This document shows, piece by piece, positions 2,498 through 20,300 of a stretch of 20,730 bases of DNA. The notes under the pieces were generated by a model that did not search any database, had not been told where the DNA came from, and was given only the letters and a program-made list of their open reading frames with translations. Each line of letters starts with the position of its first letter. Position 1 is the first letter of the stretch. The position numbers and the translations under genes were made by a program. This DNA is from a virus. The DNA lies in IMG/VR virus record IMGVR_UViG_3300020183_000557, positions 1 through 20,730 of that record; one strand, 5' to 3'.

Positions 2498-5400
2498 TTA
2501 GGCAGCGACAGCCTTGAGCACGCTGAAATTGAATACAGGCTGCTCTGTAGTCGTGCCGCCTGTAGTGGCAAAGCTGATCTTGAAGCTACCGGCGGCCACG
2601 TTGGTGACATGGATCATATAAAGATTGGTGCCACTTTTTTGGTTGACGATCACGGTGTCAGTAGCAGCCACCGTTGAATTGGTGACCGTGAACGATTGCC
2701 ATGATGTAGAGCCAGCGGCAGACACCAATGTGATGGCACCGCAGATCCTGTTGAGTGTGACGCCTGTGGTGCGGCTGGTGGCTTGGGTGACGGCACCGCC
2801 TGCACCTGTAATGTAACCAATACCAGCGGTCGAGCTTTGCGTATGCAGTTTGCCGCCGCCAACAATGTCACCCCTAACGGTCAAGTCCTGCGCGACCTCG
2901 GCGCTGCCGTTGATATTGGTGGTGCCAGTCAGATCAATCGTGACGCTGGGGATGGTGTACTGATAAACGGTGTCGTTGGCCGTGCCGACGATATAGAACT
3001 TGGTGCCGTCGGGTTTGACGAATAAGCCACTTGGCGCAGTTTCCTCAGTGGAAACACTAAACACCGTCACAAAGGATGCTGTGGTGATGTCCCAAGGTGT
3101 TGTCAGGTTGTAGATATTCACGTCATCTCCGGTGCTTCCCATCACAAACATACGGGAACCGTCAGCGGTAAAACTAAGGGCTCGCGCAGTACTCTCTTGT
3201 CCGCTAACACTAAATGAATCAACACCAATGGCAGTTGCAGGATTCCAGGCTGTTTGTAGGAAATAGCAATAAACCGTGTCGTTAGTTTCACCAACAATAT
3301 ACATCTTTAGACCATCAGGCTTGAAAAACAATCCTGTGGGGATAGCCTCTTCCGTGGTTACTGAGAGTGAAACGCTGTCGTAGGACGCGCTAGCAATGCT
3401 CCATGGTGTACTTAACGTGTACTGGTCAACCTCATCGTTTGTACCGCCGACGACATAGAGCTTTTTGCCGTCATTTCTAAAGTACAAATCCTGCGGATTG
3501 GTGTCTTGGGAAGCGACTGAGAACACCGTGACAAATGTGGCTGTGGAAACATCCCACGGCGTAGACAATGTGTACTCGTTAATATCATCACCAGAGCTGC
3601 CGATGACAAACATCTTGCGGCCATCAGGGCTAAAGAAAAGACCATTTGGGTTAGTTTCTTGGCTCCCAACCGAGAACGACACACCGTCGTAACCGGCATT
3701 AGCAACATCGACGTCGCTGATGATGGTGTTACTGCGAATCGGGCCAACAAACCGCGAATCGCCGTTGACATGCAACAACGCCGTGGGCGAACTAGTCCCA
3801 ATACCCAATCTGCCGCTGGAGTCGATGCGGGCACGCTCAGTGCCGCCTGTTTGAAATGCATGGCCACCCGTATTGAGGCCGGTTGAGTTGTAGGTGACAA
3901 GATTATTTGCAGCATCTGCTTGGATCTCAAGACGAGCACTATCAGTACCTGCGGCATTGAATTGTTCAAGGCGAAGCAAAACTGCAAGTGTGTCGCTATT
4001 TGCAGCCCTAACATGAAGCCTTGCAAAAGTGCCGCTAATTGCACCGATGCCCACATCCCCAGAGCTATTAATCCTCATCCGCTCCGTCGGTGAATTTGCA
4101 TTATTGGCGGTAGTCGAGAACGTTAAGAAGCTTCCCTTTGCTGTTGATGTCCAGGTTTGACTTGCGATGGCTGCAATTTCAGCGCCACGATCATCGCTCG
4201 TGTTACCAAACTGAATGCGACCAAGCGTGCCGCTAGCGGGAACATTTGTGGTTGGGTGAGCAAGTTTGATTTCACCGCCAGTTCCACCAGGAGCGCCACT
4301 CCTGCCAAGAAACACAGCAATAGCGTCGGCAGTGCTCGAAGACGTGCCAACTAACAGGCGTCCGCTGGAGTCGATGCGGGCGCGTTCGGTGGTTCCAGTT
4401 TCAAACGAAAGAACACCCGCAAGATTTCCAATGCTGGCTTGAGTTGAAGAACCAGCATTGTTCTGGAATCGCAGGTAGCCATAATCATTAGCAGTTCTAT
4501 TCCTAATGTTGACAGCAATACCGCCAGAATCAGATACAACATCAAGAGAACCGTTGGGACTTGTAGTGCCAATCCCTACGTTGCCTGATTGATCAATCCG
4601 TACTCGTTCTGTTTTTGTTGTATTAGTACCGGTTGCAAAACTAATCCAGCCAGCTCCAGCAAGTGTAGTCGCGCTCGCAATGTAGGCATACACGCCAGGA
4701 TCACTTGAATCGGCGGTATACCATTCTATTCCGCCGTTAACTTGACTATTGACTTTTGTTGTGTCTGTGTCAGTAAAACGAAGTCGGTTGTTAGCCGCAA
4801 GAGGATCGGTGCCGGGTGTATTGTTATTTGCTGCAAGTTCTAACAGCGCTTGAGGTGCGCCAGTCCCTATGCCTACGAGGCCAGCGGAGGTGATGCGGGC
4901 ACGTTCTGATCCGCCAGATGCAAATGTAAAACCGCCTGCAGAAGTGTTGCCAGCAGTTAAACGAAATTCACCGTCGCCAAGATTTCCGCCACCAGCAAGT
5001 TTAGAAATTCCGTAAAAGTTTGCAGCATCACCATTGAATTGTATTTTTAGAGCATTTGTGTCAGCAAAAGAAAGCGGTGCGCCACACAGAGCAGTGCCAA
5101 TTCCTACCCGCTGTGAGGAGTCAATAGTGATCGCACGATTACCGCCCGTATTAATTCCAAGAGTATTTGCGGACGGGTTTAAGATGCCAGTATCGGTGTC
5201 GTTGTTAAACGTAATTGATGGATTGTTGCCCGTAGTTACGTTTTCAAATGTAGTTGAACCACCCAAGAAAGCTGCAATATTTGTAGAGCTAAGCGCACCT
5301 GTCCCAACTTGAAGTAGTGAGCCAGGTGAAGAAGTCCCCACGCCTACTCGATCAGTAGAGGCGTCAACAAAGAACAGGTTTGCTTTTGTGTCCCCTTCAA

Positions 5401-7468
5401 CGCGGAAGTCTAAATTGGCGCCATCATCGTTGAAAACATTTTCTGGCACACCATTAGGGCCTGCTACAAAAGCCTTGTAGTAGCTGTATCCCGCTGTTGG
5501 GGAATTAAAGAAATGCTCGTCTGCAGTATATGTGGCGCCGTAAACAGCACCGAAATAGGCTCCATTATTAGCCCCCAGCATAATCGCTGGGCCTGTAGGT
5601 GAAACTATATTGATTGGTGCGTTCCCCGCCGCTGCGGTACCAATGCCAATATTGCCGCTACCGTCAACACTAAAACGATTGGCGGTAGCGTTGCCGTTAA
5701 TGGAGATTGAATTTCCGGCAGTTCCGGCTAATTCAAGCGTGCCGCTTGAATTAATCTGCAACCTTGACGTCCCACCAGTGCTGATGGCCACTTGGTTTGC
5801 ACCGGGGAAGTAGATGCCGGTATCAAGATCCCCGCGTGCAGCAATAGAAGGCGTAGCAGCAGCACCAGCACCAAACGATGCAATGCCATTGACTGTTAGT
5901 TTTGCGTCAGGCGATACATCGTAGATGCCTACTCTATCGGTTGCTTTATCTACAACAATCGCCTCCACTGATCCAGCACCCATAGCAGCAAATCGTGCTG
6001 CATTTATATACATGTAGTAAGTAGTCCCATTGCCAGCGTAGACGGTATAATTATCATGTTGCCCAAGGTAGTTATCTGATATTGTAGAAAGCGAGGTTAA
6101 AGTAATGTTTGAACTAGCAGTAATTCGTGCAGAGGCGTTATAATAATTATTGTGAAAACGTATCTCTCCTAGAGCTGTACTTTGTCCAACATTTGTATTG
6201 ACAAAAAGCTGAGTAGGATTTGTAAATTGTGCATTGCTCGCCAGCGTTAAATCACCGATACTCGTACCGTTATAAACGGTTGTAGTCGTGTTAATCCCAA
6301 CTCTGTTATTGGCAGCATCAACAAATAAAGTGCCGTTGTCGATGTTTAAATTATTGGTGACAGCGACTGTTCCGCTCCCATCAATCGTCACACGACTTAC
6401 AGTGTTCGTTGCAATCCCAACCGTATTAGCTGCTGGCAGATAAATTCCGTTTGATGGGACCGTGCTGCTGGTCGGGGACAGGCTGGCGCCCGTAACCGTG
6501 CCAGTGGTGGTGACGTTTTGACTGCCAAAGTTGGGAGAGATCTTGGTGCCAGCAATAGCAGCAGATGCGTTTACGTCAGCGTTGACGATGACACCAGCAG
6601 AAATAGCAGTTACGCCAGAACTATTAATTGTTACATCACCAGATAACGCCGTGGCAGTTGGCACATTGCTTGCATTACCAAGTAAAACAGAACCAGCGGT
6701 AATATTTGCAAGTTTGCTATGGGCAATCGCAGCAGCACTATTAATATCCGCATTGACGATGGTGTCGTTAAGAATCATCGTGCTAGTAACAGTGCCACTA
6801 TCACCAGTGGTAACAACATTGCCAGTTACATTGGGAAAAGTAATGGTGCGATCAGCCGTAGGATTAGTAACGGCAATGGTCGTTTCAAAACTATCATCGC
6901 TGCTCCCTTCAAAAACCAAACTGCCACTAGGACTAATCAGCAGTTCTCCAGTAACAGTGCCGCCAGTTTTCGGCAATGCTGCATTGGCTAGGTCATAGGC
7001 GCTTTTGACCGCAGTAGAAGAAGCAATGGTGGTGGAAGAAGTGGTGGCAGTGGAATCGCTAATTTTACTTTGCAAGCCAGAAGGCGTTACAGCACGTTGA
7101 TGATCCGTGCCAGTTTGCACTTCAGCGGGCGTGGCCACTTCCAACAGGCCAGGAATAGTTTCACTGCCAGAAGGCGTAAGATTGGAAAATGCATTACCAT
7201 TCCAAACTTTTAAACCACTAGGCACTAAACCATTGTCCACCCAAAATTCGCCCGTGCTATTGCCAGCACTACCAGCGGGCGTAGCGTTAGGAGCAGATGC
7301 TCCAACGTGGGCAGGTCCCACTTTAACAATTTCACTATTACTATCTTTAAAAAATAAACCAGGAGTGCCTGAAGCAGTATTAATAGCGAGTTGACCATCG
7401 GCTAGGCCCGATGCAGTGGGGCGCTTATCAGCAGAAGACGAACGAAGATGCTTAAGCGTAGAAGCCAT
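2498..7468 (-). CDS. Large mosaic tail fibre / receptor-binding protein (1656 aa)
   Basis: The N-terminal module (residues 1-85, MASTLKHLRSSSADKRP... LADGQLAINTASG... GNSTGEFWVD) resembles attachment heads of cyanophage fibres. Residues about 86-340 are Ser/Thr/Ala-rich, with TGGTVTGELLIS and DRTITFPNVTGNVV. About 340-1245 is a long stalk with roughly ten VGIGT-type repeats (GNVGIGTTSP, DRVGVGTSSP, GRLGIGTSSP) and DTGIYFPGANQVAISTGG motifs. About 1259-1510 is a five-unit propeller-like segment (SPDGRKMFVIGSSGDDINEY, then TPWDVSTATF). The last 108 residues (from about 1549, GYITGAGGAVTQATS, to VFNFSVLKAVAA) match a beta-rich C-terminal knob I recall from many phage proteins. No S74-type chaperone end is apparent, although VGIGT stalks often carry one. 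The product is likely a trimeric fibre whose propeller and knob face the host. The start ATG is preceded by AGGGCTTAG. The 3' portion is richer in G+C than the stalk. Confidence 0.88.
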   Translation of the reverse strand: MASTLKHLRSSSADKRPTASGLADGQLAINTASGTPGLFFKDSNSEIVKVGPAHVGASAPNATPAGSAGNSTGEFWVDNGLVPSGLKVWNGNAFSNLTPSGSETIPGLLEVATPAEVQTGTDHQRAVTPSGLQSKISDSTATTSSTTIASSTAVKSAYDLANAALPKTGGTVTGELLISPSGSLVFEGSSDDSFETTIAVTNPTADRTITFPNVTGNVVTTGDSGTVTSTMILNDTIVNADINSAAAIAHSKLANITAGSVLLGNASNVPTATALSGDVTINSSGVTAISAGVIVNADVNASAAIAGTKISPNFGSQNVTTTGTVTGASLSPTSSTVPSNGIYLPAANTVGIATNTVSRVTIDGSGTVAVTNNLNIDNGTLFVDAANNRVGINTTTTVYNGTSIGDLTLASNAQFTNPTQLFVNTNVGQSTALGEIRFHNNYYNASARITASSNITLTSLSTISDNYLGQHDNYTVYAGNGTTYYMYINAARFAAMGAGSVEAIVVDKATDRVGIYDVSPDAKLTVNGIASFGAGAAATPSIAARGDLDTGIYFPGANQVAISTGGTSRLQINSSGTLELAGTAGNSISINGNATANRFSVDGSGNIGIGTAAAGNAPINIVSPTGPAIMLGANNGAYFGAVYGATYTADEHFFNSPTAGYSYYKAFVAGPNGVPENVFNDDGANLDFRVEGDTKANLFFVDASTDRVGVGTSSPGSLLQVGTGALSSTNIAAFLGGSTTFENVTTGNNPSITFNNDTDTGILNPSANTLGINTGGNRAITIDSSQRVGIGTALCGAPLSFADTNALKIQFNGDAANFYGISKLAGGGNLGDGEFRLTAGNTSAGGFTFASGGSERARITSAGLVGIGTGAPQALLELAANNNTPGTDPLAANNRLRFTDTDTTKVNSQVNGGIEWYTADSSDPGVYAYIASATTLAGAGWISFATGTNTTKTERVRIDQSGNVGIGTTSPNGSLDVVSDSGGIAVNIRNRTANDYGYLRFQNNAGSSTQASIGNLAGVLSFETGTTERARIDSSGRLLVGTSSSTADAIAVFLGRSGAPGGTGGEIKLAHPTTNVPASGTLGRIQFGNTSDDRGAEIAAIASQTWTSTAKGSFLTFSTTANNANSPTERMRINSSGDVGIGAISGTFARLHVRAANSDTLAVLLRLEQFNAAGTDSARLEIQADAANNLVTYNSTGLNTGGHAFQTGGTERARIDSSGRLGIGTSSPTALLHVNGDSRFVGPIRSNTIISDVDVANAGYDGVSFSVGSQETNPNGLFFSPDGRKMFVIGSSGDDINEYTLSTPWDVSTATFVTVFSVASQDTNPQDLYFRNDGKKLYVVGGTNDEVDQYTLSTPWSIASASYDSVSLSVTTEEAIPTGLFFKPDGLKMYIVGETNDTVYCYFLQTAWNPATAIGVDSFSVSGQESTARALSFTADGSRMFVMGSTGDDVNIYNLTTPWDITTASFVTVFSVSTEETAPSGLFVKPDGTKFYIVGTANDTVYQYTIPSVTIDLTGTTNINGSAEVAQDLTVRGDIVGGGKLHTQSSTAGIGYITGAGGAVTQATSRTTGVTLNRICGAITLVSAAGSTSWQSFTVTNSTVAATDTVIVNQKSGTNLYMIHVTNVAAGSFKISFATTGGTTTEQPVFNFSVLKAVAA
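2939..3694 (-). repeat. Five-unit propeller-like repeat within the large fibre
   Basis: Five units of about 50 residues repeat within residues 1259-1510 of the fibre. Each has a hydrophobic beta strand (VSFSV, VTVFSV, VSLSV), a Q/E-E/D-x-x-P-x-x-L-x-F segment, a D-G-x-K/R-M/L-Y/F-V/I-V/I-G strand-turn, N/D-D-x-V-x-x-Y, and, in the first four, TPW or TAW. This spacing is typical of WD- or YVTN-like propeller blades. Five blades would be compact. The fold is inferred from sequence only. Confidence 0.65.
3745..6440 (-). repeat. VGIGT-type stalk repeats within the large fibre
   Basis: This coding stretch holds about ten irregularly spaced copies of a motif of the form G-x-V/L-G-I-G-T-x-x-P/A followed by a short hydrophobic strand, often preceded by E-R-A/M/V-R-I-x-S/Q-S/A-G. 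The phrase ERARIDSSGRL occurs twice, near residues 1030 and 1215. Such repeats are usual in beta-helical or triple-beta phage stalks. Copies are diverged at DNA level, so I give approximate limits for the whole array. Confidence 0.7.
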
Positions 7469-7714: not shown

Positions 7715-10603
7715 TTAATAAGAGCCATCATCAATAATGCCAATGCTCATAATGCCAGTGCCACTAGCCACTGCAATTTCTGTAGAGGCTCGCACAATGC
7801 CATAGACAGAAGTGGAGGCCACTTGCACTCTCCCCCATACACTGGTGTTGAAACTTTCCTGCGTGGTAATTCCAGGGGCTGCAGGAATTAAGGCGGGACC
7901 GTCAACGAGCACGTCTCCATCGCTAACGCCAGCCACTGCGGAAGCAAAGTCAAGCGTCTCCCAATTTGCCCCTTGCCCCAGCGAAACCACCCAGTCCCCA
8001 GCCGATAGCGTTCCAACAGGAGCAGCTCCAGTGCCATAGCCCGAAGTGGTAACAATGTAATAAAGGCCATTATTACTTTCACTGGGGGCTGTTAAAACAT
8101 CACCAATGTTTAAACCAGCTTGTGTGGAGTACTGCGTGACTGTGGCAATCGTATTTCCAGAAGCGTTATAAGTGCCAGCAAAACGCAAGTTTTCATTCTG
8201 TAAATTGCCATAGCCAAGATTAAGCCAATAACCATTGCTAGTCTCTAAAGTTTCTCCAATTTGTCCCACCCAGATATAACTAGAGCGATCACTAGGATTC
8301 ACCCACCATTGACCAGCAAATTGTGGATTTGGCGCACTCTCGCTCACTTGAGCAATGCCATTATCAGCCAACTGCTCTGCCGTAACGCTATTTGTGGCAA
8401 GACGTTCGCTGCTAAATGTGCCAGTAGTAATCTTGCTGGCGTCTAACGCTGGAATTTGATCCGCAATAAGAGAAGTGGCTGCACTTGTAATATGTCCTTG
8501 AGCATCAATGGTCAAAAGACCAATATATTCACCAGCAGCAAATGAATTGCTATGGTTGATGGCGCCACCAGCATCCACGCTTAAACCAGCGCCAGGACTG
8601 ACAGCACCAATCGCATTGCTAGTTGCAACGGGCAAATCTGCGGCTGTTAAATTACGGAATGTAGGCGTAGTCGAGGCTCCAGAAACTGGTCCCGCAAAAA
8701 TAGTATTAACGGCTTGATTGTCTAAAGAGCTAGTAATTGTGGCCGAATAATCGTCTGGGTAGCTAACGACAAAATTTAATGGAGTGGAATCAACAAAGTC
8801 AATAGTATTAATTGCCGCCTGCCGTTCCCAGCTATCACCATCCCAAATATATTCAAAACTAGTAGCAGTATCAAAATATTGCTGGCCAATAAAATTACCA
8901 GCAGTAATTGGTGCTCCTACATCAACAATGGAAGAAGAATTATCCGCAAGTTTATCAGCCGTAACACCACTATCTACAATTTTGATAGTAGTTACAGCCG
9001 CGTTTTGAAGGGCATCAGTAAAAATAGCATTAGCAGCAATTAAGCCGCTGCCGATTGTTCCACTTGCAATGGAAACACCACTAATTCCCCCAGCGGAAAT
9101 ATCTGCGCTAGTAATTGCATTATTTAACGCAATGGCTCCCAGGCCAATATATGAACGCACTGCACCAGCGGAAGTTCCACTGGCCAGCATCGTTTTCATA
9201 AAATCATCTACGCCAATCGTTGTATAAACATCACTGTCAGTGGTATAAAGAAGCGTACCAGAAGAAGTGGCAAGCCCAGCAATAGAAGCCAAGCCAGCAT
9301 CATAGGCTTGCACATTTGTGCCAATAGCTAAACCAAGATTAGTGCGAGCATCAGAGGCAGTAGAGGCTCCAGTGCCACCATCAGCTATTGCAATGTCGGT
9401 AATACCAACAATAGTGCCGCCGCTAATCGTGACGCTTCCTGGCTCTTGGATGGACATATTGCCCAGTCCCAAGGTGGTTCTGACAGTGCTTGCAGTGGAA
9501 CCAGAAATAATTGCGCGTCCAATAGATGAAATAGGACTAACTGCAAACACCCCAGAAGAAGTGGTGTAAAGCATTTCGTCAGCGCCAGTTGTAACAGTGG
9601 TCAGACCAGAAAGCGTTGAACTATATGGTTGAACGTTGCTGCCAATAGCAAGCCCTAAATTAGTACGTGCATTGGCTGCTGTGGAAGCACCAGTGCCACC
9701 ATCGGCAATAGCTAAGTCAGTGATGCCACTAATTGTGCCTCCGCTAATCGTGGCATTGCCAGTTGTTAAATTAATATTTTCAATAGTTCCACCACTAATT
9801 GCAACGCTGGCAGCATTTTGTACTGCCATTGTGCCCAGCCCAATAGTGCTACGAACATCAGCAGTTGTACTGCCAGAAACAATACTTCTACCAAGAGAAG
9901 TGATGGAACTTGCCTCAAACACTCCCGATGCGGTGGTGTAAAGCAGTTGATTTGCGCTAGTAGTGGCAGTGGCAATACTAGAAAGCGTTGAACTATATGG
10001 TTGAACGTCGCTGCCAATAGCAAGTCCTAAATTGCTACGTGCATCAGCCGTAGTAGAGGCCCCCGTGCCGCCATCGGCAATGGCTAGGTCAACAATTCCA
10101 CTAATTGTGCCACCACTAATTGTGGCATTTCCCGTAATTAAAGTAATATTTTGAACAGTGCCGCCACTAATTTGAACGCTTGCAGCATCTTGACTTGCAA
10201 TGGTGCCAAGCGTAGGCAGACCAGTTAAGCTCGCATAGGTGCCGCTAGTTGCAACTGCAGCAAGTCCAGAAACGCCAGAAGCAGTAATGGCAATGGCAAT
10301 GCCAGATGCATAAGTGACAAGGCCCTTGTCATTGATGCTGAATTGCGGGACAGTATTGGCACTTCCAAATGTGCCAGAAGAAATAATGCTTGCTAATGCA
10401 GCCGAAGAAAGCTTGGTGCTAGATGATTGGTTTAATACTCCAATATCAATGGTGCCAGATGGCATTCCACTGATGCCATATTGCAATAAATTGCCAACAG
10501 TTATTTTCTTTGTTTCTTGAGCGCCAATATCTACAATTGGCAGCAAGTCTGACTGAGCTACATCATTCGTGAGCGTCGTTAAGTCTGAAATGCGAACAGT
10601 CAT
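7715..10603 (-). CDS. Repeat-containing tail fibre protein (962 aa)
   Basis: The head (residues 1-60, MTVRISDLTTLTNDVAQSDL... LLPIVDIGAQETKKITVGNL) is typical of phage fibres. Residues 170-489 contain three large repeats, each opening with the IADGGTGAST...NLGLAIG...VQ-Y signature, followed by LLYTT or MLYTT and RxTIGLGxM-type strands. Residues about 490-740 include GQQYFDTATSFEYIWDGDSW and ASKITTGTFSSERLATNS. About 775-815 repeats the tryptophan module (AGQWWVNPSDRSSYIWVG), and about 825-900 resembles a cyanophage fibre domain (FAGTYNASGNTIATVTQYS, then DWVVSLGQGANWETLDF). It ends GIIDDGSY. No enzyme motif is visible. AGGAG at 10619-10615 precedes the ATG by eleven bases, within the end of the preceding gene, two bases from its stop. 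The product is probably a trimeric beta-rich fibre. The shared repeat links it to the GTG-start fibre at the left edge. Confidence 0.88.
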   Translation of the reverse strand: MTVRISDLTTLTNDVAQSDLLPIVDIGAQETKKITVGNLLQYGISGMPSGTIDIGVLNQSSSTKLSSAALASIISSGTFGSANTVPQFSINDKGLVTYASGIAIAITASGVSGLAAVATSGTYASLTGLPTLGTIASQDAASVQISGGTVQNITLITGNATISGGTISGIVDLAIADGGTGASTTADARSNLGLAIGSDVQPYSSTLSSIATATTSANQLLYTTASGVFEASSITSLGRSIVSGSTTADVRSTIGLGTMAVQNAASVAISGGTIENINLTTGNATISGGTISGITDLAIADGGTGASTAANARTNLGLAIGSNVQPYSSTLSGLTTVTTGADEMLYTTSSGVFAVSPISSIGRAIISGSTASTVRTTLGLGNMSIQEPGSVTISGGTIVGITDIAIADGGTGASTASDARTNLGLAIGTNVQAYDAGLASIAGLATSSGTLLYTTDSDVYTTIGVDDFMKTMLASGTSAGAVRSYIGLGAIALNNAITSADISAGGISGVSIASGTIGSGLIAANAIFTDALQNAAVTTIKIVDSGVTADKLADNSSSIVDVGAPITAGNFIGQQYFDTATSFEYIWDGDSWERQAAINTIDFVDSTPLNFVVSYPDDYSATITSSLDNQAVNTIFAGPVSGASTTPTFRNLTAADLPVATSNAIGAVSPGAGLSVDAGGAINHSNSFAAGEYIGLLTIDAQGHITSAATSLIADQIPALDASKITTGTFSSERLATNSVTAEQLADNGIAQVSESAPNPQFAGQWWVNPSDRSSYIWVGQIGETLETSNGYWLNLGYGNLQNENLRFAGTYNASGNTIATVTQYSTQAGLNIGDVLTAPSESNNGLYYIVTTSGYGTGAAPVGTLSAGDWVVSLGQGANWETLDFASAVAGVSDGDVLVDGPALIPAAPGITTQESFNTSVWGRVQVASTSVYGIVRASTEIAVASGTGIMSIGIIDDGSY
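9137..10096 (-). repeat. Three tandem coding repeats of about 90-124 codons
   Basis: Repeat units begin near 10096, 9724 and 9403 and correspond to residues 170-293, 294-400 and 401-489. Each contains IADGGTGAST, R-x-N-L-G-L-A-I-G and a Y-T-T strand; the first two also share GNATISGGTISGI. The third is the most diverged at its end. A fourth, separate relative lies at about 206-290 in the left-edge fibre gene. Confidence 0.8.
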
Positions 10604-10605
10604 GG

Positions 10606-11538
10606 TTAATTGTTCTCCTCTAAGACGCCCAGTTCTTCTAATGTACTTTCGTTACCAATGCTAACATCGGCCTCAGTAGTAAGGTCAATTGCCTGCACAC
10701 CAGCACGAAGTTTAAACTCACCATTAACGACAAAATCAAAACTACATTCCACAATTTGATCAGCCGCTACATCCACACCAGCATTGGTCATAATGCCTTC
10801 CACTTCATAATAAAGACCATTATTTGCTGCGTATCCTGGAGGTTGCGGTAGGCCAGGTTCTAAAACATAAAACTTGCCATTAAAACGACTGCCAATTTCA
10901 ATTTTCTGGATGAGCTGGCACAATGCTATTGGAAGCTCTTCGTCGTTCAATGTAGAAAAATCAAACTTACAATCAACACTGCCGCTGCCATTCACTTGTG
11001 CTGCTTGGTAATTTTGATATTTATCGCCAAGGGTGGTAGTATCAACAGTAACTCGTTCAGTGTTAATCGTAAATCCTTCCACTCTTCCTAAAGTGTTATA
11101 AGCCCCTGCAAGTTGAGTAATGGTTACGGGCCAACTAGGATCAGAAGCCGTCTTGCTTAAAGGGATAGCAAGGTAACGCACGCCAGGATTAGACAATGCA
11201 TCAGCAAATGTGCGATACATGCGAATTTGCCCCATTGCATCGACATTGGCAAAAAATTCTAAGGGCAACACACTTGCACCAGGATCATCTATATAAGTAG
11301 TATTTGTATTATCAGTGTAAAAGCGAAAAGGAAGCCCCCTGGCGTCGCTAGTTGTAATCCTAATGCGATCTCCAGAAGTGATTAAACCATGTTCAACTTC
11401 ACTGCCGTCGGGGTTGGTTAAAGCAATTCTTTTTCGCGTAGTATTAAGATTTTCAGCCGAAAGGCTTAAAGACAATGTATTACTAGAGCCAATTCTTTGC
11501 AGCTCAATAGCACCATAATGGCCAGCAAAGACTGTCAT
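10606..11538 (-). CDS. Tail-tube-like structural protein (310 aa)
   Basis: The start MTVFAGHYGAIELQR and the sequence GDRIRITTSDARGLPFRFY look like a virion protein of marine long-tailed phages. Residues 93-112 read EFFANVDAMGQIRMYRTFAD. Residues 153-190 read VEGFTINTERVTVDTTTLGD, then NGSGSVDCKFDF. This D-T-T-x-L-G-D plus S-G-S-G arrangement is the signature of lambda V / TP901-type tail-tube subunits and related proteins, and the protein ends with a hydrophobic strand (VECSFDFVVNGEFKL) like the tube-like neighbour upstream. It lies 13 bases after that neighbour and two bases before the 962-residue fibre. There is no clear ribosome-binding site; the leader is A-rich. It may be a second tube, a tube-cap or an adaptor ring below the tip. 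The family assignment rests on motifs, not a search. Confidence 0.65.
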   Translation of the reverse strand: MTVFAGHYGAIELQRIGSSNTLSLSLSAENLNTTRKRIALTNPDGSEVEHGLITSGDRIRITTSDARGLPFRFYTDNTNTTYIDDPGASVLPLEFFANVDAMGQIRMYRTFADALSNPGVRYLAIPLSKTASDPSWPVTITQLAGAYNTLGRVEGFTINTERVTVDTTTLGDKYQNYQAAQVNGSGSVDCKFDFSTLNDEELPIALCQLIQKIEIGSRFNGKFYVLEPGLPQPPGYAANNGLYYEVEGIMTNAGVDVAADQIVECSFDFVVNGEFKLRAGVQAIDLTTEADVSIGNESTLEELGVLEENN

Positions 11539-11551
11539 TTACGTTTTATTT

Positions 11552-12313
11552 TTAGGAAGGCACGCCAATAAACTGACCATCCATCTGGAACGAAACATCC
11601 ACTGTTACAATCTCTCCATAATTGGAAGACAGCGATGCACCAGTGATATAAGCGTAAAGATCAAAGCGATTTGCGTTTGAAGAATCAATGCCAAGACGCA
11701 GCAACACACGAGTGGCGCCAGTGGACTTGAAAATAATCTTGCTTAAATCTGACATATCGCTCATATTGGCAGTATTGCCAAGGTCTTCTTTGTAGTACAT
11801 TAAAGTGGCACTACCAGTGGCAGTGGTGGGGCCAGCAATAAAAGTTTTACCAGGACTGCCTAAAACGCTGGTATCCAACACATCATTAGTAATATCTAAA
11901 GACCAAGTTTTAAGTTTGCCGATATTATTGGCAGGCGTGACAAGTTCAGAAATGCTATCAATGCCAGCAGTAGTTGTAGAGGTAATTGAGAACGAATCGG
12001 TAAGCACAGCGGTTGTGCCAGCGCTCGCAAATTTAATAGTATCACCAGCACTATATCCATTCCCGCCAGCACTAATGGTTAAGGTGCCCGCAACCGATGC
12101 AGTGGTAGAAGTGGTTACGTTTGATTTTAAAGTGGCCTTGGCCCTACTGCCACCGCCAGTAACAGTAATGGCGTCCCAAGAAGTGCCTGCGGCATAAGTC
12201 CTGGCAGTAGTCGTTTTAGTAAAACTAACTGAAATATCGGCAAGATTTAACGCACCATCTTCAACATAACTAGCCATCCACATTGCGCCAGTATTGCCAG
12301 TAAAGAATCCCAT
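11552..12313 (-). CDS. Major tail-tube-like protein with an inserted domain (253 aa)
   Basis: The start MGFFTGNTGAMWMASYVEDG resembles the N-terminal strand of major tail proteins. Residues 131-175 read IGKLKTWSLDITNDVLDTSV, then LGSPGKTFIAGPTTATGSAT and LMYY. This W-S-L-x-I-x-x-x-V-L-D-T-x-x-L-G and T-G-S-A-T-L pattern is characteristic of tail-tube subunits, and it ends with a strand, VTVDVSFQMDGQFIGV. Between residues about 40 and 112 lies an extra Gly/Thr/Ser-rich segment with GGNGYSAGDTIKF, a motif seen in phage surface domains, so the tube core may be interrupted by a decoration module. The gene follows J after 42 AT-rich bases, the largest gap in this part of the operon. Tube subunits normally polymerise around the tape measure. 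A major tail protein is likely, but its location after J is unusual. Confidence 0.7.
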   Translation of the reverse strand: MGFFTGNTGAMWMASYVEDGALNLADISVSFTKTTTARTYAAGTSWDAITVTGGGSRAKATLKSNVTTSTTASVAGTLTISAGGNGYSAGDTIKFASAGTTAVLTDSFSITSTTTAGIDSISELVTPANNIGKLKTWSLDITNDVLDTSVLGSPGKTFIAGPTTATGSATLMYYKEDLGNTANMSDMSDLSKIIFKSTGATRVLLRLGIDSSNANRFDLYAYITGASLSSNYGEIVTVDVSFQMDGQFIGVPS

Positions 12314-12355: not shown

Positions 12356-15300
12356 TTAGCTTGCTTTGCCATCAATAGTAAACACCCCCGTGCTTTTAGC
12401 AGTGAGTCCTTTAGAAACTAAAGACTTCCCATTGCTATCGCAAGGATGTTCGACGCCGCGAATAGTCACTTCTCCTTCCTCGTCCATTTCCACTTCAGTC
12501 ACACGAAATACGCGCTTGCTATTAATTTCCTTGCCGAGAACAAAGAGCTTTCCATTGAAAGCCTTTAATGCATTGCCTGAGACAGCGCCATTCGCAATGA
12601 CAATACCAGACTTAGTAGAAGTGCCACTAACACCAGTATTCGGATCGTAAATCAAAATATTATAAGTGCCGTCAGGAATTTTACCGTTGCTAGTTTTACT
12701 GCCAATAGGAACATCTAAGGCGCTATTTGCTCTGATGGTTCCAGTGTAAATATCTTGCCATTCATTTTGAGCCAGTTCTACATAGATATAGGCACCAGGA
12801 GAGATGGCGGCTTCCGTAGGAAAAGTTTTAAATTCAATGGCGCGACGTGTATGATGGCGTAGTTGGCACAATGATTTGCCAACTAAAATTGCCTGCTCTT
12901 TATTGCTCACATAAGCCGACATATCAACAGTTTGACGAATGGCATCGTTTTCATTGAGTTTAATCTTTTGGTCTTCATCTACATACGTGCGCCTCACTTC
13001 TACGCTTTTATTGCGTGAAAATGCTCCGTCTTTATCTAGATCACGATAAATACAAGTGACGATAATGTCTTCCGTGTTGACGCTATAATCAATAAATTCC
13101 TCTTTGTAAGAATCTTCAAAAATATTACCTGGATTAAATAGAGCTGAAACTTTAATTGTTTGCGTGATTTCGCCAGTGGAGGAATCATAGGGCACGGAGG
13201 GAACTAGGCAGTCTTGGCCGCCAATGCGAGCAAGTTCTAACAAGCTAAAACCAGCCGTTTGCGACCAAAACGAACGCCATGATTGTGCATCAGCAATCAC
13301 ACAATCCATAAATAATTTATTGATTTCACAAAACTTTTTGCTTCTTGCTAATTGTTCAAGATTAACGCAACTCACTGATGCATATTTACCAATGCCATCG
13401 TTTTGATCCAATACAGTGTCCAACAAAATATCAGGGGCAGTATTAATATAAGCTTGCGCTACCACTTGTCCAGTGCCAGTAGCAGGGCCAGTGGCAATAA
13501 AATCCACTCCTACTGCCGCTTCTACATTTTTTGCAAGCCCATGATTGTAAAAATTAGTAGTGCCGACTTTAGTGATAATATAAGAAGTGTCTGCAACCAT
13601 TTCTTGCGCTGGAATGGTTCCCGCTGGTGGTAAATATTCATAACCTGGCTTGCCCCATGCCACGCCATTAACAGTGCCTTTTGTTCGCAATGCACGAGCG
13701 GGACGCCCTTTCGTAACAAACATGCTGAGCGAACGCAAATCGCTCACGCTTTTCCCCGAATACAAATTAAAACCAACCAACGAAAGATCATTGTAAAGAG
13801 TGGGAAAGGATGTTTTTATGTCATCAATAACCACTTGCTCAGTAACTGCCGTAATTTGCATTTCTGGACCACGATCAAACGACATGGAATACTGCGTATC
13901 AGCCACCAAGCTAAAAGCATCCCATTCACGGGCATCTAATAAACCATCGCTTACGGGAGGCAGTCCATTTTTTGATGTTTTTTTAGTGCCAACAATTTGA
14001 ATGGAGGCAGTTCCTGGCAAGTCAATATTTAATGGGCTACCAGAGTTTTCAATGTAATAATAAACAACTCCACTTGCGCCATAAATTTTAGTATTTTTCT
14101 TAAGTTCAGCCGAAAAATCACACACGGGTTCAAGCTCAAAAGACCAATGCGTGGCATTAGCCTCTCCAGTCTTTCCACTATTAAAACGAAGGTAATTAAA
14201 ATTCTCTTGATCGGCAGCTCTTCGTATAACAAAAAAGCCTGAAACATATAAATAATTATCTTGGGACGCTTTTTTATATTTTAAAAGAAAAATAGCAGTG
14301 CGAGATTTGATGCCATTGTCTGATGACGGATATCCTTTGCGACGCTCCCGCCCATATTGTTCTTGTCGTCCGCTAATTCTGCGATAGACAGTAGATTTAA
14401 TGGCAATATCTACAATATTGCAAGGAGAAATTGTTTCATATTTGGCTTTTTCAATGCGAACCAAAGCTTTTAGCCCAAACACGTCTTTAAGGCTCACTTT
14501 TAAGCCTGTTCCAGTATTATTTATTTTGTTTCTTGCATCTATGTATTGTTTAATTGCCGCCTTGTCGCTTGTTGATAAAATAGTTATATCTTTATACACT
14601 TGCACGGTGTAGGGGACTCGGATATAATAAATGCCTGCCTTGCCCGATCTCCGTTCTGTTCTGTATCTAGTTTCCGTGCGTACACTTTGTGTTTTACCTT
14701 TTTTGTAAATTTTATCAATATCGTCGCCAGTCTTGTCTTCTTCTTCAAACTTACTCACTAGACTTTGCCATTTATCAACAATTTCTTGTTCCGCCAAAAG
14801 ACTAGCAGGACCAACAATAATAATGTCTAAACTATTATCTATAAAATTAGTTTTATCATATTGAACAGTTGGGGAATATCCAGCTTCAATACATTGCAAT
14901 GTCACGTTTGCATTGGCGTCTTCAATATCAGAACGGTCAATTTTAACAACGCTAAATAAAGCCGACCCCAGTTTAAAAATGCTTGCATTGTCAAAGATAC
15001 TAACCACTTGACGGCGATAGTCATTTGCTTCTTTTTGCGCCACGTTAGGCTTGTCAGTATCAACTTTTGCAATGGAAACTGTAAGTTTATCGCCAACACT
15101 AATCCGGTTAAGGCGTGATGACCATGATGACAAACGAGCTGTCACCTTATTAGAAGCACTAATCCTATTTCCACTGCCTTTTCTGACGTATAAATTAACA
15201 TTGAGGGCAATGGGGGAATAAAAACCAAACGATTGCGAAGATGATAATGAAAAAGCTTGACTAAAACCATCTTTGCGCTCCGTATTATCTTTTCCATATG

Positions 15301-15973
15301 GAATGCGATAAGGGTTGGCTGAGCTTCCACCAGCTTTTGTGGGATCAGTTTCTTTAGTTAAACCATAGGGATCGGGCAGTAAATCAGCATTGGTAAGCTT
15401 GCCAGTTTGAAAATCATTAAAATAAATCCAATAATTTTGCGCCACCAAGTCTCTAACTGGTGTTTGACCAAAGGCAATTAGTTCTTGATCAATTTCGCCA
15501 ATAGGCCCCGCGCTAATTAGAGCAAGCATCTGCACAAATTGACTACTGCCATAGCTCCTTAGTGCAGACCATAATAATGAAGTGGCAATTCTTGCCCCAC
15601 CATTTGGATTGATAGAACGATTGGCATAGACTAAGTTGACTGGCGTGCCATATTCTGCCACTTGCTGAATCGAATTAAAACGTGTGCGTGGAGCAAATAT
15701 GTCATCGCGAGTTTGATTAACTCCTTCTCCCTGCGGAGCCTGTGGTTGCTCTTCTGCGGGCAGCAACGCTGCCACTACTTGCAAAATTGTGCCAAGAACA
15801 ACTAAAACAATGGCAACAGCAGGCCAGTTCCTTACGTCTAAAACCGTGCCTTCTTTAACATCTTTATATTGCTGCTTAACATCTAAGAAATTAAAATATT
15901 CCTCTTTGCTAATGCCAAGCGCATCAATCAGCTCATATTCATAAGGAAGAAGACGACGCCGTTGATCGCTCAT
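12356..15973 (-). CDS. Tail tip attachment protein, J-like (1205 aa)
   Basis: Length (lambda J is about 1130 residues) and position immediately after an NlpC-like gene fit the central tip protein that contacts the host. A hydrophobic segment at residues 51-71 (AVAIVLVVLGTILQVVAALL) is likely membrane- or tip-inserted. Residues 95-165 hold NSIQQVAEYGTPVNLVYANR and QMLALISAGPIGEI, typical of J N-termini. From about residue 860 to 1130 the order KFCEINKLFMDCVIADAQSW, ELARIGGQDCLVPS, EVRRTYVDED, LRHHTRRAIEF and PGAYIYVELAQNEW resembles the hub domains of J and gp27-like proteins. A separate module at about 790-840 (DTSYIITKVGTTNFYNHGLA, then ATGPATGTGQVV) looks inserted. The ATG shares one base with the stop of the upstream gene (TAATG). 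Later genes probably supply side fibres and tube-like parts. J identity is good at family level. Confidence 0.78.
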   Translation of the reverse strand: MSDQRRRLLPYEYELIDALGISKEEYFNFLDVKQQYKDVKEGTVLDVRNWPAVAIVLVVLGTILQVVAALLPAEEQPQAPQGEGVNQTRDDIFAPRTRFNSIQQVAEYGTPVNLVYANRSINPNGGARIATSLLWSALRSYGSSQFVQMLALISAGPIGEIDQELIAFGQTPVRDLVAQNYWIYFNDFQTGKLTNADLLPDPYGLTKETDPTKAGGSSANPYRIPYGKDNTERKDGFSQAFSLSSSQSFGFYSPIALNVNLYVRKGSGNRISASNKVTARLSSWSSRLNRISVGDKLTVSIAKVDTDKPNVAQKEANDYRRQVVSIFDNASIFKLGSALFSVVKIDRSDIEDANANVTLQCIEAGYSPTVQYDKTNFIDNSLDIIIVGPASLLAEQEIVDKWQSLVSKFEEEDKTGDDIDKIYKKGKTQSVRTETRYRTERRSGKAGIYYIRVPYTVQVYKDITILSTSDKAAIKQYIDARNKINNTGTGLKVSLKDVFGLKALVRIEKAKYETISPCNIVDIAIKSTVYRRISGRQEQYGRERRKGYPSSDNGIKSRTAIFLLKYKKASQDNYLYVSGFFVIRRAADQENFNYLRFNSGKTGEANATHWSFELEPVCDFSAELKKNTKIYGASGVVYYYIENSGSPLNIDLPGTASIQIVGTKKTSKNGLPPVSDGLLDAREWDAFSLVADTQYSMSFDRGPEMQITAVTEQVVIDDIKTSFPTLYNDLSLVGFNLYSGKSVSDLRSLSMFVTKGRPARALRTKGTVNGVAWGKPGYEYLPPAGTIPAQEMVADTSYIITKVGTTNFYNHGLAKNVEAAVGVDFIATGPATGTGQVVAQAYINTAPDILLDTVLDQNDGIGKYASVSCVNLEQLARSKKFCEINKLFMDCVIADAQSWRSFWSQTAGFSLLELARIGGQDCLVPSVPYDSSTGEITQTIKVSALFNPGNIFEDSYKEEFIDYSVNTEDIIVTCIYRDLDKDGAFSRNKSVEVRRTYVDEDQKIKLNENDAIRQTVDMSAYVSNKEQAILVGKSLCQLRHHTRRAIEFKTFPTEAAISPGAYIYVELAQNEWQDIYTGTIRANSALDVPIGSKTSNGKIPDGTYNILIYDPNTGVSGTSTKSGIVIANGAVSGNALKAFNGKLFVLGKEINSKRVFRVTEVEMDEEGEVTIRGVEHPCDSNGKSLVSKGLTAKSTGVFTIDGKAS

Positions 15974-16365
15974 TAGTCTGCCCAGAAATATTTCTTTGGA
16001 CGCACATTATTTAATGGCGCCGCAATTACCATCTTACTCGGCCCAAGAAATAAACAATTATCTTCATCAGCTACAACTGCCATAGCCAATAATGATTTGG
16101 CGCCTGGTAAATAAAAAACTGCCCCTGGACGTGGCTCTTTTAAAATTTCACCATGCGTAAGAAGCCAGCGAAAAATACGGCGCACAGTTAGCTCTTCTTC
16201 TGCATAGTCTTCATACACCCATGGAAAGCTATCCTTCAATGTTTTAAGGCCAAGCCGTCGGCGCACTTCCATACAGAGAAGCCAGCAGTCCGTAAAGCCA
16301 TTACCATCCTCTGGAGATGCAGCATAACGATGGCGAAGACCCACTAAATCGTTATAGTCAATCAT
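15973..16365 (-). CDS. NlpC/P60-like tail protein, possibly inactive (130 aa)
   Basis: Residues 22-40 read NGFTDCWLLCMEVRRRLGL, resembling the D-C-x-x-L...R-x-x-G helix that carries the catalytic Cys in NlpC/P60 peptidases of the lambda K type. Residues 78-86 read PRPGAVFYL, like the P-x-x-G-D-x-x-x strand before the catalytic His in that family. At the expected His site the sequence is SLLAMAVV, with no His; the only His residues are 12 and 71. The usual family domain is about 110-130 residues, so length fits. It sits between L-like and J-like genes, exactly where K lies in lambda, and overlaps its neighbours by four and one bases. It may be a degenerate tail-assembly factor instead of a cell-wall peptidase. 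Family assignment is moderate and loss of activity is inferred. Confidence 0.6.
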   Translation of the reverse strand: MIDYNDLVGLRHRYAASPEDGNGFTDCWLLCMEVRRRLGLKTLKDSFPWVYEDYAEEELTVRRIFRWLLTHGEILKEPRPGAVFYLPGAKSLLAMAVVADEDNCLFLGPSKMVIAAPLNNVRPKKYFWAD

Positions 16366-16898
16366 TGTAAATACAAATCAGCATTCATCGGTAACAATCC
16401 TACAAGCGCTCTTGTAAGACGCCGTGAAGGAAATTGACTCCCCACGCTATCCATTGCACTCCTAAAACGTAATTCTATGGTTGTTTCACTAACCGTAGAA
16501 CCAATGCCAATGTAATATTCAGAATAAGCTTTAGTCGTTTCTTCTAAATCTTCATTTAACCAAACAGTAGATAAAGTGAGTCTACTCAGACGGTTACCAT
16601 TACCTTGCTCTAACAAGCGCATTGCCACTGGAATGTTTGGAAACGTAATGCTTAGCAAGGAATTGTCTCCATTCAAGTTGGAAATGGAGCCAGTGGTGCT
16701 AAATGGCATGAAGCCATATTTATTATTATCTCTCGTTTTTGTTTCGTTGACAAAATAATTTTGGTAGCGATGGATGAAAGCACTACCAGTGCCATAAACA
16801 ACAGTATCTTTTGTACTAGCCTTTCCTTCGCTTTGTGCAATTGCAGCAGTAGGAGCAAATGCCGTAAGATCTAAATATTGAACAATGCGAATGGTCAT
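16362..16898 (-). CDS. Distal tail / minor tail protein, L-like (178 aa)
   Basis: The protein begins MTIRIVQYLDLTAFAPTAAI and ends with FPSRRLTRALVGLLPMNADL. A middle segment reads RLSRLTLSTVWLNEDLEE, with YYIGIGSTVSETTIELRFRS after it. These match small minor tail proteins that occupy the lambda L position (DUF1833-like or L-like): a beta-rich domain ending with P-S-R-R-x-T...G-L-L-P. No Cys is present, so it cannot bind the iron-sulfur cluster reported for lambda L. It overlaps the M-like gene upstream and the NlpC-like gene downstream by four bases each (ATGA). I infer a distal tail ring joining the tube to J. Confidence in the role comes mostly from gene order. Confidence 0.65.
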   Translation of the reverse strand: MTIRIVQYLDLTAFAPTAAIAQSEGKASTKDTVVYGTGSAFIHRYQNYFVNETKTRDNNKYGFMPFSTTGSISNLNGDNSLLSITFPNIPVAMRLLEQGNGNRLSRLTLSTVWLNEDLEETTKAYSEYYIGIGSTVSETTIELRFRSAMDSVGSQFPSRRLTRALVGLLPMNADLYLQ

Positions 16899-17299
16899 AC
16901 AAGGTCTGCCACTAAAGTGATTGTCACATTACTATATTGACCAAACACTGATTCAATTTGAGGACTTTCCACATAAAACCAATCAGTATTAGAAGGATTT
17001 TGAAACAATGCATATACATCGGCGGATAATCCTGAAAACATTTCCTTTGGCATCGTAAAACCAACTATGCTGCCATACTGACCGTTGTAATGATCAACGA
17101 TTGCCTTTAACGTAGATTCAGAAACGGCATTAAAGCCTAAAGTGAGTTGAAAATTAGTTGGTTTGCTTCCAAAACTCCGCCGAATGGTCTTGCCAGACAA
17201 CGAACGATAAACTTTTGTTGGATAGTCCCCTGGCGTAAAACTTCTCGCTGAAGGACGAATTTTGTCGCCATTGCTATCAACAATAGGAAATGCAGCCAT
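16895..17299 (-). CDS. Minor tail protein, M-like (134 aa)
   Basis: It begins MAAFPIVDSNGDKIRPSARS, then FTPGDYPTKVYRSLSGKTIR with RSFGSKPTNFQLTLGF, and later has HYNGQYGSIVGFTMPKEMF. The pattern P-S-x-R-x-F-x-P-G-x-Y-P-x-K-x-Y-R-S-L-S-G and the later G-F-x-x-P resemble the small beta-rich proteins encoded just after tape measure genes (lambda M position). It starts three bases after the tape measure stop with a weak GGGAA about seven bases upstream, and its stop overlaps the next ATG by four bases. A role in assembling the tail end next to the tape measure C-terminus is inferred from order. Confidence 0.68.
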   Translation of the reverse strand: MAAFPIVDSNGDKIRPSARSFTPGDYPTKVYRSLSGKTIRRSFGSKPTNFQLTLGFNAVSESTLKAIVDHYNGQYGSIVGFTMPKEMFSGLSADVYALFQNPSNTDWFYVESPQIESVFGQYSNVTITLVADLV

Positions 17300-17302
17300 G
17301 AT

Positions 17303-20300
17303 TTACATTCCCACGCGACGGCGAACAGAAGGACTTTGCTGAAGCTTGTCTAATGCCATTGTGGCGCCTTTAGTGGCACCATCTCTGGCGGCAAGCCTGC
17401 GCGTTTGCGCCATGGCCTGCTCTAATTGATCTTTACTAACGTATTCTACGCCATTAACACTTGTGGTCTGGAAGCTCATATTAAGCACGGGCGACATATT
17501 GCGCTCAGAGCCGCCATTAATTAGTTCTCGCGAACGAGGGCTTCCCTGCAGGGCCACAGGGATGCTCCTGCCATCAGGCAGAGGCACAATAGCCTCGTTG
17601 TACTTGCCTTCGCCTACGAGGCCCAGCGTGGGACCAGAAACAGTACCGCCATTGGCAAATGCCTGGAATCCTCCAGTGGCAATACCTCCATTTGCAAAAC
17701 CTTTTAAGCCAAAAATTTTGCCAAAGCCAAAAATGCCACCACCAATGCCCATCAAAATACTGCCAATGCCAGCAATTGTATTTTTAGTGCCTCCTTTTTG
17801 CAATTGTTCAATACCTGCCACAATGCTCATAGCAGCTCCAGCCATCATTCCAATTCCTTGAACAACACGGCCAAGACTTTCTACAAATTTATTTCCTTCA
17901 TGCTTGGCTTTGTTTGTCACATCTTTAACTGCATCCATGTTTACGCTTAAATTATTGGATGTTTGCAGAGTCGTGTCGGAAAGATATCCCATTGATGCCG
18001 CCACTCCCTTGGTGGCTTCATTAAAACCAGCGGATGACATATTAAATTGATCCATGTTGATACCAGCTTCAGACAAGAAGTTGGACCCGCCTGCCATTGT
18101 GAATGCAGAAGTTGCAGAACCAGGCGTATAAGAACCAAAACCAGCCGTTCCGCTAAGTGTTAAGCTGCTGCTGGCGGGCAAAGCCTGAGCAGCGGCGCCA
18201 GCGCCAGGCCGCGTATTTTGTTCAATTCTGTTAAGCGTATCATTTGCTGTATCTAGCTTTTGTTCAACTGGCGTTTGCGCTTTTTGCTGTTGTTTTTCGG
18301 CTTCAGATGGAGGGAATAATTTTTCAATTAATTTGCCGCCAACAACGTCCTTAAAGAAATCTTCCACGGGTTTCATTGTGAAATCCAAGAAAATAGTCAA
18401 CACTCTATCTTTTAAACCTTCTTGGAACTGCTCTAATGCATCAACAGCGTCTTCGCCGCTAATCACTGCTTTTAAGAAGCCCTTGTAGTCCGATGAAGTG
18501 GAATCAACAAAATTATCAATTAGCTCTCTCACTTGTTTAATATTGTCGCGAACTTTTTCCAGCGACATAATATTATTTAAATCGCTTTCTCTTAAGTCGG
18601 GATATCTTTGAAGGATCTCTAGACGACGGCGTTCTTCGTCGTTAACCGCACGAAGCAAGGCAATTTCATTCTGCAATGGTTTCAGCAGTTCATCTTTTAC
18701 TGTTTTTTGATATTTAGTAGCATTGGCATCTTGAATTCTTAGCCTGATTTGCTCCCTAAGTATCTGCGCCAATTCCTGACCACGCTTGGCGTCTTTGCCT
18801 TTAAGCGCATCGAGAGTGGTTCTAATTAAATATTCAGCCTCTAAAACATCATTGTTTACGTCAATAGCATTGCCATACAATTCTTGTTGTATTGTTGCCA
18901 ATGCAGTTGCCTTTGTTTCTTTTTCGATGCCATCGAGAATTGGGCCAAACAAAACTTTTTCTTTTTCTAAAGTAGCTTCTCCTATTGATTTTTGATACTG
19001 AGCATTTGCATCATCAATAGCTTTCTGTCTATTTACATAGCCAGCCTTTTCAATCTGCAATAATCGCGCATTTAATTCTTCTTTTGCAATTACATGTTTT
19101 CCGTATTCGGTTATATTTGCCTTCTGAATTTCTTTTTCTCGTGCGTCTAGGCTTGTATTGCGCTCCACTGCCGCAAGCCTTTCATTGAGTTGTCGTTCAA
19201 TCTCAGGAGATTTTGTACTGATATAAACTTTTGGTTTGGCAGCACGTCCTTTTTCATCTCCAGTGCCAGCGGGAATTGCACCAAGAACGGGAGGAAGCAT
19301 TGCCTGCTTCTCCTCATATGTCAATTGTTCGCCTCGATACCTGGCTTCTGATTCTCTTTGCCTTAACTGTTGATATGCACCGGCAATACGATACGGCTGT
19401 ACTTGCTCTTGCCCTCTAACATTGCTAGTCATAATACCAGCCGCCTTTAACGCCTCAGATTGTTGCTTGCTGACGGCAATCCATGCCTTGCCTTTGAGTT
19501 GCCCATTTTCCAATTGCTTGTTTAAGTCTTCAAGACTACGAGCAAAACCTCCGTAGCTTTGTTCGGCTGCTCGTGCTTCACCACGACTCATTGAACGAAT
19601 TGCATTGCCAGCATTCATTGCCTTTTGTTTTGTTTCTTCTAAGCGTTGATTAAGCGACATAAAGCGCTCAATCAATGCACTAATTCCAACCAGCACAAGA
19701 CCAACGCCAATAGAAGCAAAAAATGTACGAAGAGTTAAGCCAGCCGTGCGAATAGATGCAGCAGTGACTTGCGCTGTATTGCCAGTGGCTGCCATCATTC
19801 CACGGAAAGCGCTTAACGTGGTAGTTCCAGTTAGAACACGAGCGTTAAAAATTAACAATTGTGCGGCATTGGAAATCCACAGGCCACGCATCACATTAAG
19901 AGCCATGTTTAATGGCAAAACAATCGTATAAATTCTTGCTAAATATCCAACAAATGGATTGCCAGCAATTTGCAATAAAATTTTCGATACCTCTAACGCA
20001 ATCTTCCCAAATGCACTAAATTGTTGAATCAATGCAGATAGATTAGTCCTAGTGCCATCAAAGGCCGGACGCAAACGTTCCAGTTCTTGTGCTAAAGCAA
20101 AACCACCTGCAGTACGTGCTTGTGCTCCCGTAAAAAAGGAATTCACGCCATCCGCCACTTGACGAATGCCTTGCGTCATGGGCGTAACTACGCTATTTAA
20201 AAAGCCCACCGCAACAGGTTCAAAAGCTTCGTATAGAAGCTTGAGTGAATTCTGCATACGATTGATGCTGCCTTGGAATGTACGAGCCGCACCTTCCGCC

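Follow-up and report, generated by a model that had tools for sequence, protein, structure and literature searches.

Tube-fold proteins of tail tips and the locus analyzed

Extra tube rings at the tail tip have been described for few phages. In T5, the tip protein p140 has a tube fold, is encoded among the baseplate genes and is a probable duplicate of the shaft protein, with which it shares 9% identity; it is ringed by a collar of p132 that holds the lateral fibers, and p140 and p132 are described as a landmark confined to large T5-like phages (PMC10038345, available excerpt). According to the same excerpt, each p140 chain has two tube domains and forms trimeric, pseudo-hexameric rings that are undecorated (PMC10038345). 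In T4, the two tube-like rings of gp54 and gp48 lie between the hub and the shaft (PMC10038345 and PMC8718954, excerpts of both); the T4 tail is contractile, and we liken gp54 and gp48 to the proteins studied here by description only. In the available part of a further source, the distal tail protein of JBD30 and the shaft protein of T5 are described as carrying two tube-like domains side by side in one chain, an arrangement of adjacent domains that can convert sixfold into threefold symmetry (PMC11445458). Our literature search, which covered few subscription papers, returned no account of a pair of tube-type proteins encoded after J.

The DNA analyzed here, referred to as the window, is a linear viral record of 20,730 bases whose minus strand encodes, in this order, a tape measure protein, proteins of 134, 178, and 130 amino acids (aa), a J-like protein, the two proteins of interest (tube1 and tube2), a tail fiber, a 1656-aa protein, and smaller genes. 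The tape measure gene (positions 17303 to 20728; Pfam TMP_3, E value of 1e-16; phrog_2335, 2e-43) is cut by the contig end, where its frame is still open. The three small tip genes (15973 to 17299) belong to the same module; in the PHROG search the 134-aa gene matched phrog_15525 (“minor tail protein,” 2e-18), the 178-aa gene matched phrog_25799 (7e-11), and the 130-aa gene had no match. The upstream neighbor of the pair is a 1205-aa J-like tip protein (12356 to 15973; phrog_27845, “tail protein,” 3e-6), for which the name J was taken over from the preliminary description of this DNA; tblastn linked it to a tail protein of Mic1 (3e-9) and to S-LBS1 (6e-5). It is followed by the genes of tube1 (253 aa, 11552 to 12313) and tube2 (310 aa, 10606 to 11538), which are spaced by 13 nucleotides (nt), and the preliminary description was correct in the coordinates of the pair, 10606 to 12313, and in both lengths. 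The downstream neighbor is a tail fiber of 962 aa (7715 to 10603; phrog_24210, “tail fiber protein,” 3e-45). Several tail fiber families match the 1656-aa protein (2498 to 7468), and given these matches the window phage may have fibers of more than one type. Families involved in fiber assembly match a gene at 1342 to 1680.

We propose that tube1 and tube2, as specialized proteins of the tail-tube family, are probably components of the tip (baseplate) in a long-tailed phage, and gene searches indicate that in relatives this extra pair comes on top of an ordinary shaft-tube gene. Like T5 p140, the two proteins are of the tube family, distinct from the shaft protein and encoded in the tip block; unlike p140, they are two one-domain proteins encoded after J, and tube2 as well as the tube1 of the window carries an insert. 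They also differ from the distal tail protein of JBD30, a fused chain and an ordinary Dit, in being two chains encoded after J. The locus adds an unrelated phage group with a fixed pair of tube paralogues in its J-fiber module, and it offers a test case for the recruitment of tube proteins into tips, for the meeting of a sixfold tail with a threefold tip, and for the seating of fibers.

Kinship of tube1 and tube2 with tail-tube proteins

Profile searches linked tube1 to two PHROG families of major tail proteins, phrog_10528 (E value of 9e-7) and phrog_1407 (2e-5), and the tube1 family matched the protein annotated as major tail protein in MED4-117 and MED4-184 (2e-18) as well as the shaft (major tail) protein of DSL-LC06 (1e-12). 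These shaft proteins are the nearest annotated sequence relatives of tube1; their gene lies before the tape measure gene and is the sole tube gene that our models found in those records. A comparison of 25 tube1 members with NCBIfam gave nothing beyond chance-level matches in single members, and a sequence search of the PDB with the tube1 and tube2 profiles gave no tail match. The single-chain AlphaFold2 model of tube1 (mean pLDDT of 74.7) had six Foldseek matches at an E value of ≤0.001, every one a tail or tail-like particle, and among the 50 matches listed all were phage-tail, GTA, or injection-system proteins. Its best VIA-align match was the Sf11 tail (Z of 10.3, rmsd of 5.8, 138 aligned residues), and among the matches listed most were tubes, Hcp, Dit, or proteins related to these; VIA-align re-examines Foldseek's own candidates, and the tool warns that best Z values of 7 to 8 are common without true kinship. 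From profiles and the predicted model, we regard it as settled that tube1 is a tail-tube family protein with a tail-tube fold.

The tube2 protein of the window matched a single PHROG family, phrog_1407, at an E value of 0.014, and tube2 genes of relatives reached the same family at 7e-4 and 3e-4. In four of 28 contigs (G003, G015, G024, and G027), phrog_1407 alone gave three matches each, to the upstream gene, to tube1, and to tube2. When 25 tube2 members were compared with Pfam, the families most often matched were, at weak E values, two families of tail-tube proteins, Phage_TTP_11 (6 members, best 0.008) and Phage_tube_2 (3 members, best 0.002), and E values of 4e-5 to 4e-4 linked the tube2 family to the MED4-117 and MED4-184 major tail protein. 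The single-chain AlphaFold2 model was of low confidence (mean pLDDT of 63.8); Foldseek gave no match to it at an E value of ≤0.001, and its rows were mixed, with immunoglobulin proteins among them. The best VIA-align match was the YDC107 tail core (Z of 8.1, rmsd of 4.3, 113 aligned residues), a score about equal to that of models without a clear match, and among the 50 matches listed nearly all were tube, Hcp, Dit, or related proteins. Mainly on account of its sequence, tube2 is very likely a tail-tube family protein.

The two proteins also resemble each other. Pairwise BLASTP aligned them over 141 positions at 20% identity (E value of 0.004), and this alignment takes in the last strand; profiles of 22 sequences each, aligned by hhalign, gave an E value of 7e-6 and a probability of 84%. 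Among 14 contigs, the tube2 gene was also detected by the tube1 model in 7 (3e-8 to 2e-6) and the tube1 gene by the tube2 model in 9 (1e-6 to 7e-4). With broader models, tube1 matched 106 of 168 tube2-labeled open reading frames (ORFs) and tube2 matched 95 of 183 tube1-labeled ones, counts that are redundant in that loci overlap and some of the labeled ORFs are shaft genes. In the control, for which 7,429 ORFs were examined, no ORF best labeled as another gene was matched by the broader models at an E value of ≤1e-3. By these comparisons, the likeness between tube1 and tube2 exceeds chance.

The signature that the preliminary description ascribed to both proteins held in part. The motif D-T-x-x-L-G, followed by a G-S-x-[T/S] segment, was found in tube1 (residues 147 to 152, 11858 to 11875; GSAT at 167) and in tube2 (residues 166 to 171, 11026 to 11043; GSGS at 184). 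The full signature as worded is not common to the two: T-x-x-V-x-D-T-x-x-L-G occurs exactly in tube1 only (residues 142 to 152), the tube2 version, T-x-x-V-x-x-D-T-x-x-L-G (residues 160 to 171), is one residue longer, and with the leading hydrophobic residue included neither protein matched. The broader statement, that two tube-type proteins follow J, is supported by the profiles, the fold comparison, and the tree described below, and the fold is firm for tube1 and less so for tube2. In the structure-based comparison that had been proposed, tube1 clearly resembled solved tail tubes, and the likeness of tube2 came from a low-confidence model.

The tree was built from 18 of 25 tube1 members, 18 of 25 tube2 members, and 11 shaft proteins. 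In it, tube1 formed one clade (support of 99/98) and tube2 another (91/76), and each of them contained both phage clades, that of the window and a second one. The tube1 clade lies with the MED4-117-type shaft proteins, and on these grounds a recent tandem duplication was rejected; the rows of the 192-aa shaft protein described below had been trimmed by guess, sit on a branch of 4.2, and were flagged as unsure by the program.

Profile matches and alignments revealed one tube core in each protein. In tube1, the core is C-terminal (approximately residues 129 to 253, 11555 to 11929; PHROG matches span residues 129 to 247), and in tube2 it covers approximately residues 146 to 280 (10699 to 11103; phrog_1407 match at 143 to 274). 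The tube1 proteins of the window's clade have some 110 extra residues near the N terminus, which in the window correspond roughly to residues 18 to 128 (11930 to 12262, limits approximate) and which the second clade, with its short tube1, lacks; the insert of tube2 (residues 20 to 145, 11104 to 11481, limits likewise approximate) is present in both clades. Outside tube1 genes, a hidden Markov model of the tube1 insert found only cut pieces of tube1, the tube1 of the window itself, and weak matches (E value of 0.005), the latter being small ORFs at the tube1 position of a frameshifted contig. Inserts of this size, carried by the window tube1 and by tube2 in either clade, together with the fiber gene adjoining tube2, could mean that the tube fold is a mere scaffold and that the inserts make tube1 and tube2 peripheral adaptors for fibers or receptors rather than channel rings. 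We hold this to be distinctly improbable, because tube1 of the second clade, at about 143 aa, has little beyond the tube core, and because the core is the conserved part of these proteins, a hint that contacts of the ring type remain important.

The shaft-tube gene of the relatives

Since the window stops within the tape measure gene, the shaft-tube gene of its virus is inferred from relatives. A 192-aa tube gene was present in 11 of the 15 contigs of the window's clade, between the head genes and the tape measure gene and upstream of the latter where both are visible. It is whole or nearly so in six contigs (G003, G005, G007, G010, G011, and G013) and runs off the contig end in 5 of the 11 (G004, G006, G009, G012, and G027). 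The other 4 of the 15 contigs end too early: G001, G002, and G014 stop within the tape measure or tip genes, and G008 opens on a partial ORF immediately ahead of the 134-type gene, its sole match to the shaft model being its tube2 gene. Two of the 192-aa genes matched phrog_1407 (E values of 1e-4 and 7e-4), and among five relatives the gene is 87 to 92% identical in pairwise comparisons. Its alignment with tube2 was confined to 44 columns at the last strand (3e-6), and it gave no match with tube1 (0.68). The 79,771-base contig G006 is probably a whole genome, because its 200-base ends match at 99.5%, and in it the tube1, tube2, shaft, and phrog_1407 models found no fourth tube gene. The phage S-CBS4 has both the 192-aa shaft gene (9e-63) and the tape measure (6e-277) in common with the window's clade, and when its whole record was searched with the tube1 and tube2 models, neither gene was present.

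A shaft gene of the 192-aa type was absent from all 14 contigs of the second clade. A further gene was found there by the tube1 model in seven contigs (G015, G020 to G024, and G026), and coordinate comparison placed it upstream of the tape measure in six of them; the contig of G020 breaks at this place. None of the tube models used matched the gene that precedes the tape measure in G016, G018, or G025 (394 or 310 aa). Such unmatched large genes precede the tape measure in part of the second clade, at loci L192 and L194 (394 aa) and L193 (310 aa).

Among the roles offered in the preliminary description was a two-part tube, which we disfavor because in the relatives a separate tube gene occupies the customary position, ahead of the tape measure; such a gene was one half of what had been named there as evidence against its own reading, and this half was found in the relatives. 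Neither tube1 nor tube2 lies between the head-completion genes and the tape measure, where a major tail protein gene would stand; the pair follows J. One could still imagine that tube1, tube2, or both polymerize along the tail, with the upstream tube protein or in its place. The pair indeed shares its family with shaft proteins, the tube1 clade groups with those of the MED4-117 type, and the shaft gene was not recognized in G016, G018, and G025. Moreover, the abundant tail-tube protein of Mic1, ORF20, is encoded downstream of the tip genes, and the SPP1 shaft mixes gp17.1 with a C-terminally extended form (PMC8718954, in the available excerpt). We nevertheless consider a mixed shaft quite unlikely: the relatives keep their separate 192-aa gene, strongly conserved and in its usual place, S-CBS4 has this gene and a tape measure without the pair, and the pair is far more diverged than the shaft protein and the capsid. 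As for Mic1, its ORF20 was not matched by the tube1 or tube2 model.

Gene context, divergence, and putative role of the pair

In IMG/VR, at least 569 relatives of tube1 were confirmed, shaft genes possibly included, and the tube1 profile scan kept 80 of them, so that the counts of gene order describe the best-matching part. This part comprised 69 distinct tube2-labeled genes, counted by their last 300 nt, with L028 and L175 from the one frameshifted contig left out. Tube1 adjoined tube2 in 67 of the 68 that had at least 400 nt upstream, and a fiber gene directly followed tube2 in 56 of the 57 with at least 250 nt downstream; the lone exception on both sides was the KBS-S-2A gene, a shaft gene and not a tip gene. 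In the same best-matching set, 71 genes were labeled tube1: 59 were flanked by J and tube2, 4 were flanked by a 134-type gene and tube2, 2 lay at contig edges within the block, and the remaining 6 were stand-alone shaft genes. The median tube1-tube2 gap was −1 nt (61 pairs), compared with 37 nt between J and tube1; gaps were taken from the first possible start codons, and negative ones may be overstated.

Five relatives were compared for the divergence of their genes. Mean pairwise identity was 90% for the capsid and 89% for the shaft tube, against 44% for J, 50% for tube1, 64% for tube2, 69% for the fiber N terminus, and 39 to 55% for the small tip genes. The pair therefore diverges like the tip genes and unlike the capsid and the shaft protein. 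The tape measure, at a mean identity of 32% in the same five relatives, is more diverged than the tip genes; as it lines the shaft and yet diverges most, divergence alone cannot place a protein.

Of the three roles considered in the preliminary description, a distal extension of the tip on which fibers sit fits best, because the position of the pair is constant, with J on one side and the fiber on the other, and because it diverges like the tip genes; the seating of fibers on it is putative. A collar at the neck, the third role, would have tube1 and tube2 forming rings where the head-completion proteins meet the shaft. Tube-like rings do occur at necks, and the Foldseek and VIA-align rows for the pair include the SaPI1 neck and the GTA neck. 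The link of the pair to the tip genes speaks against this, however, as the two genes are fixed between J and the fiber, their divergence is unlike that of capsid and shaft, and S-CBS4, which shares the shaft gene and has a capsid and head genes arranged in the same order, lacks them. We consider a neck collar very improbable. The pair likewise does not occupy the place of a Dit gene, directly after the tape measure; the 134-aa gene is found there, and Mic1 relatives of that gene have a faint match to DUF2460 (E value of 0.01).

As components of the tip, tube1 and tube2 would each assemble into a tube-like ring, extending the channel close to the distal end of the tail. These rings would be sandwiched between the J/hub complex and the final ring of the shaft and would have the inserted regions on the outside, and by analogy the pair might work like T5 p140, the tip ring of tube fold encircled by a fiber-bearing collar. 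That the tube2 ring forms part of a fiber seat is a tentative idea, slightly less likely than not: it comes from the adjacency of the tube2 and fiber genes, which is suggestive only, given KBS-S-2A. In that phage, a fiber with the same N-terminal segment directly follows a tail protein and the pair is absent, so tube2 is not required for every such fiber. The fiber N terminus, considered as an anchor specific to tube2, was not upheld for the same reason.

The two proteins might also share a single ring, three copies of each in alternation, which would be a two-chain counterpart of the trimeric, two-domain rings of T5 and JBD30. Such a mixed ring is allowed by the strict pairing (all 67 tip-type cases among the best-matching relatives), by the close-set genes, and by the single core of each protein, and a ring mixed from two tube proteins is on record in type VI secretion, where an Hcp2-Hcp3 heterohexamer is named in the title of PDB 9vne. 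We rate this arrangement as rather unlikely; if true, it would offer J and the fibers a threefold platform on a sixfold shaft.

Relatives of tube2 were searched for in phage records with three tube2 query sequences and in the contigs of species genomes, and none was found in either; the records searched likewise held no isolate of the pair-carrying phage group. A search of 28 contigs for PF00124 (psbA type) gave no match. By sequence likeness to S-CBS4, Mic1, S-LBS1, and the MED4 phages, a cyanobacterial host is at most suggested.

In MED4-117 (L001), the major tail gene occurs at 611 to 1030 and at 38473 to 38805, toward opposite ends of this linear record, each time with a recurring 354-nt gene as its neighbor. 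The recurring neighbor and the positions near the ends are what an end overlap would produce, and the second place was rejected, by inference, as a precedent for two tube genes.

Some further variation was observed around the pair. In G010 (L028 and L175), the tape measure, J, and tube1 are split into many short frames and tube2 is open, and the broken frames are probably sequencing errors. At five loci (L143, L144, L152, L156, and L160), a relative of the 134-aa gene sits between J and tube1, unlike in the window, where this gene follows the tape measure, and in Mic1 four genes were matched by the 134-aa-gene model.
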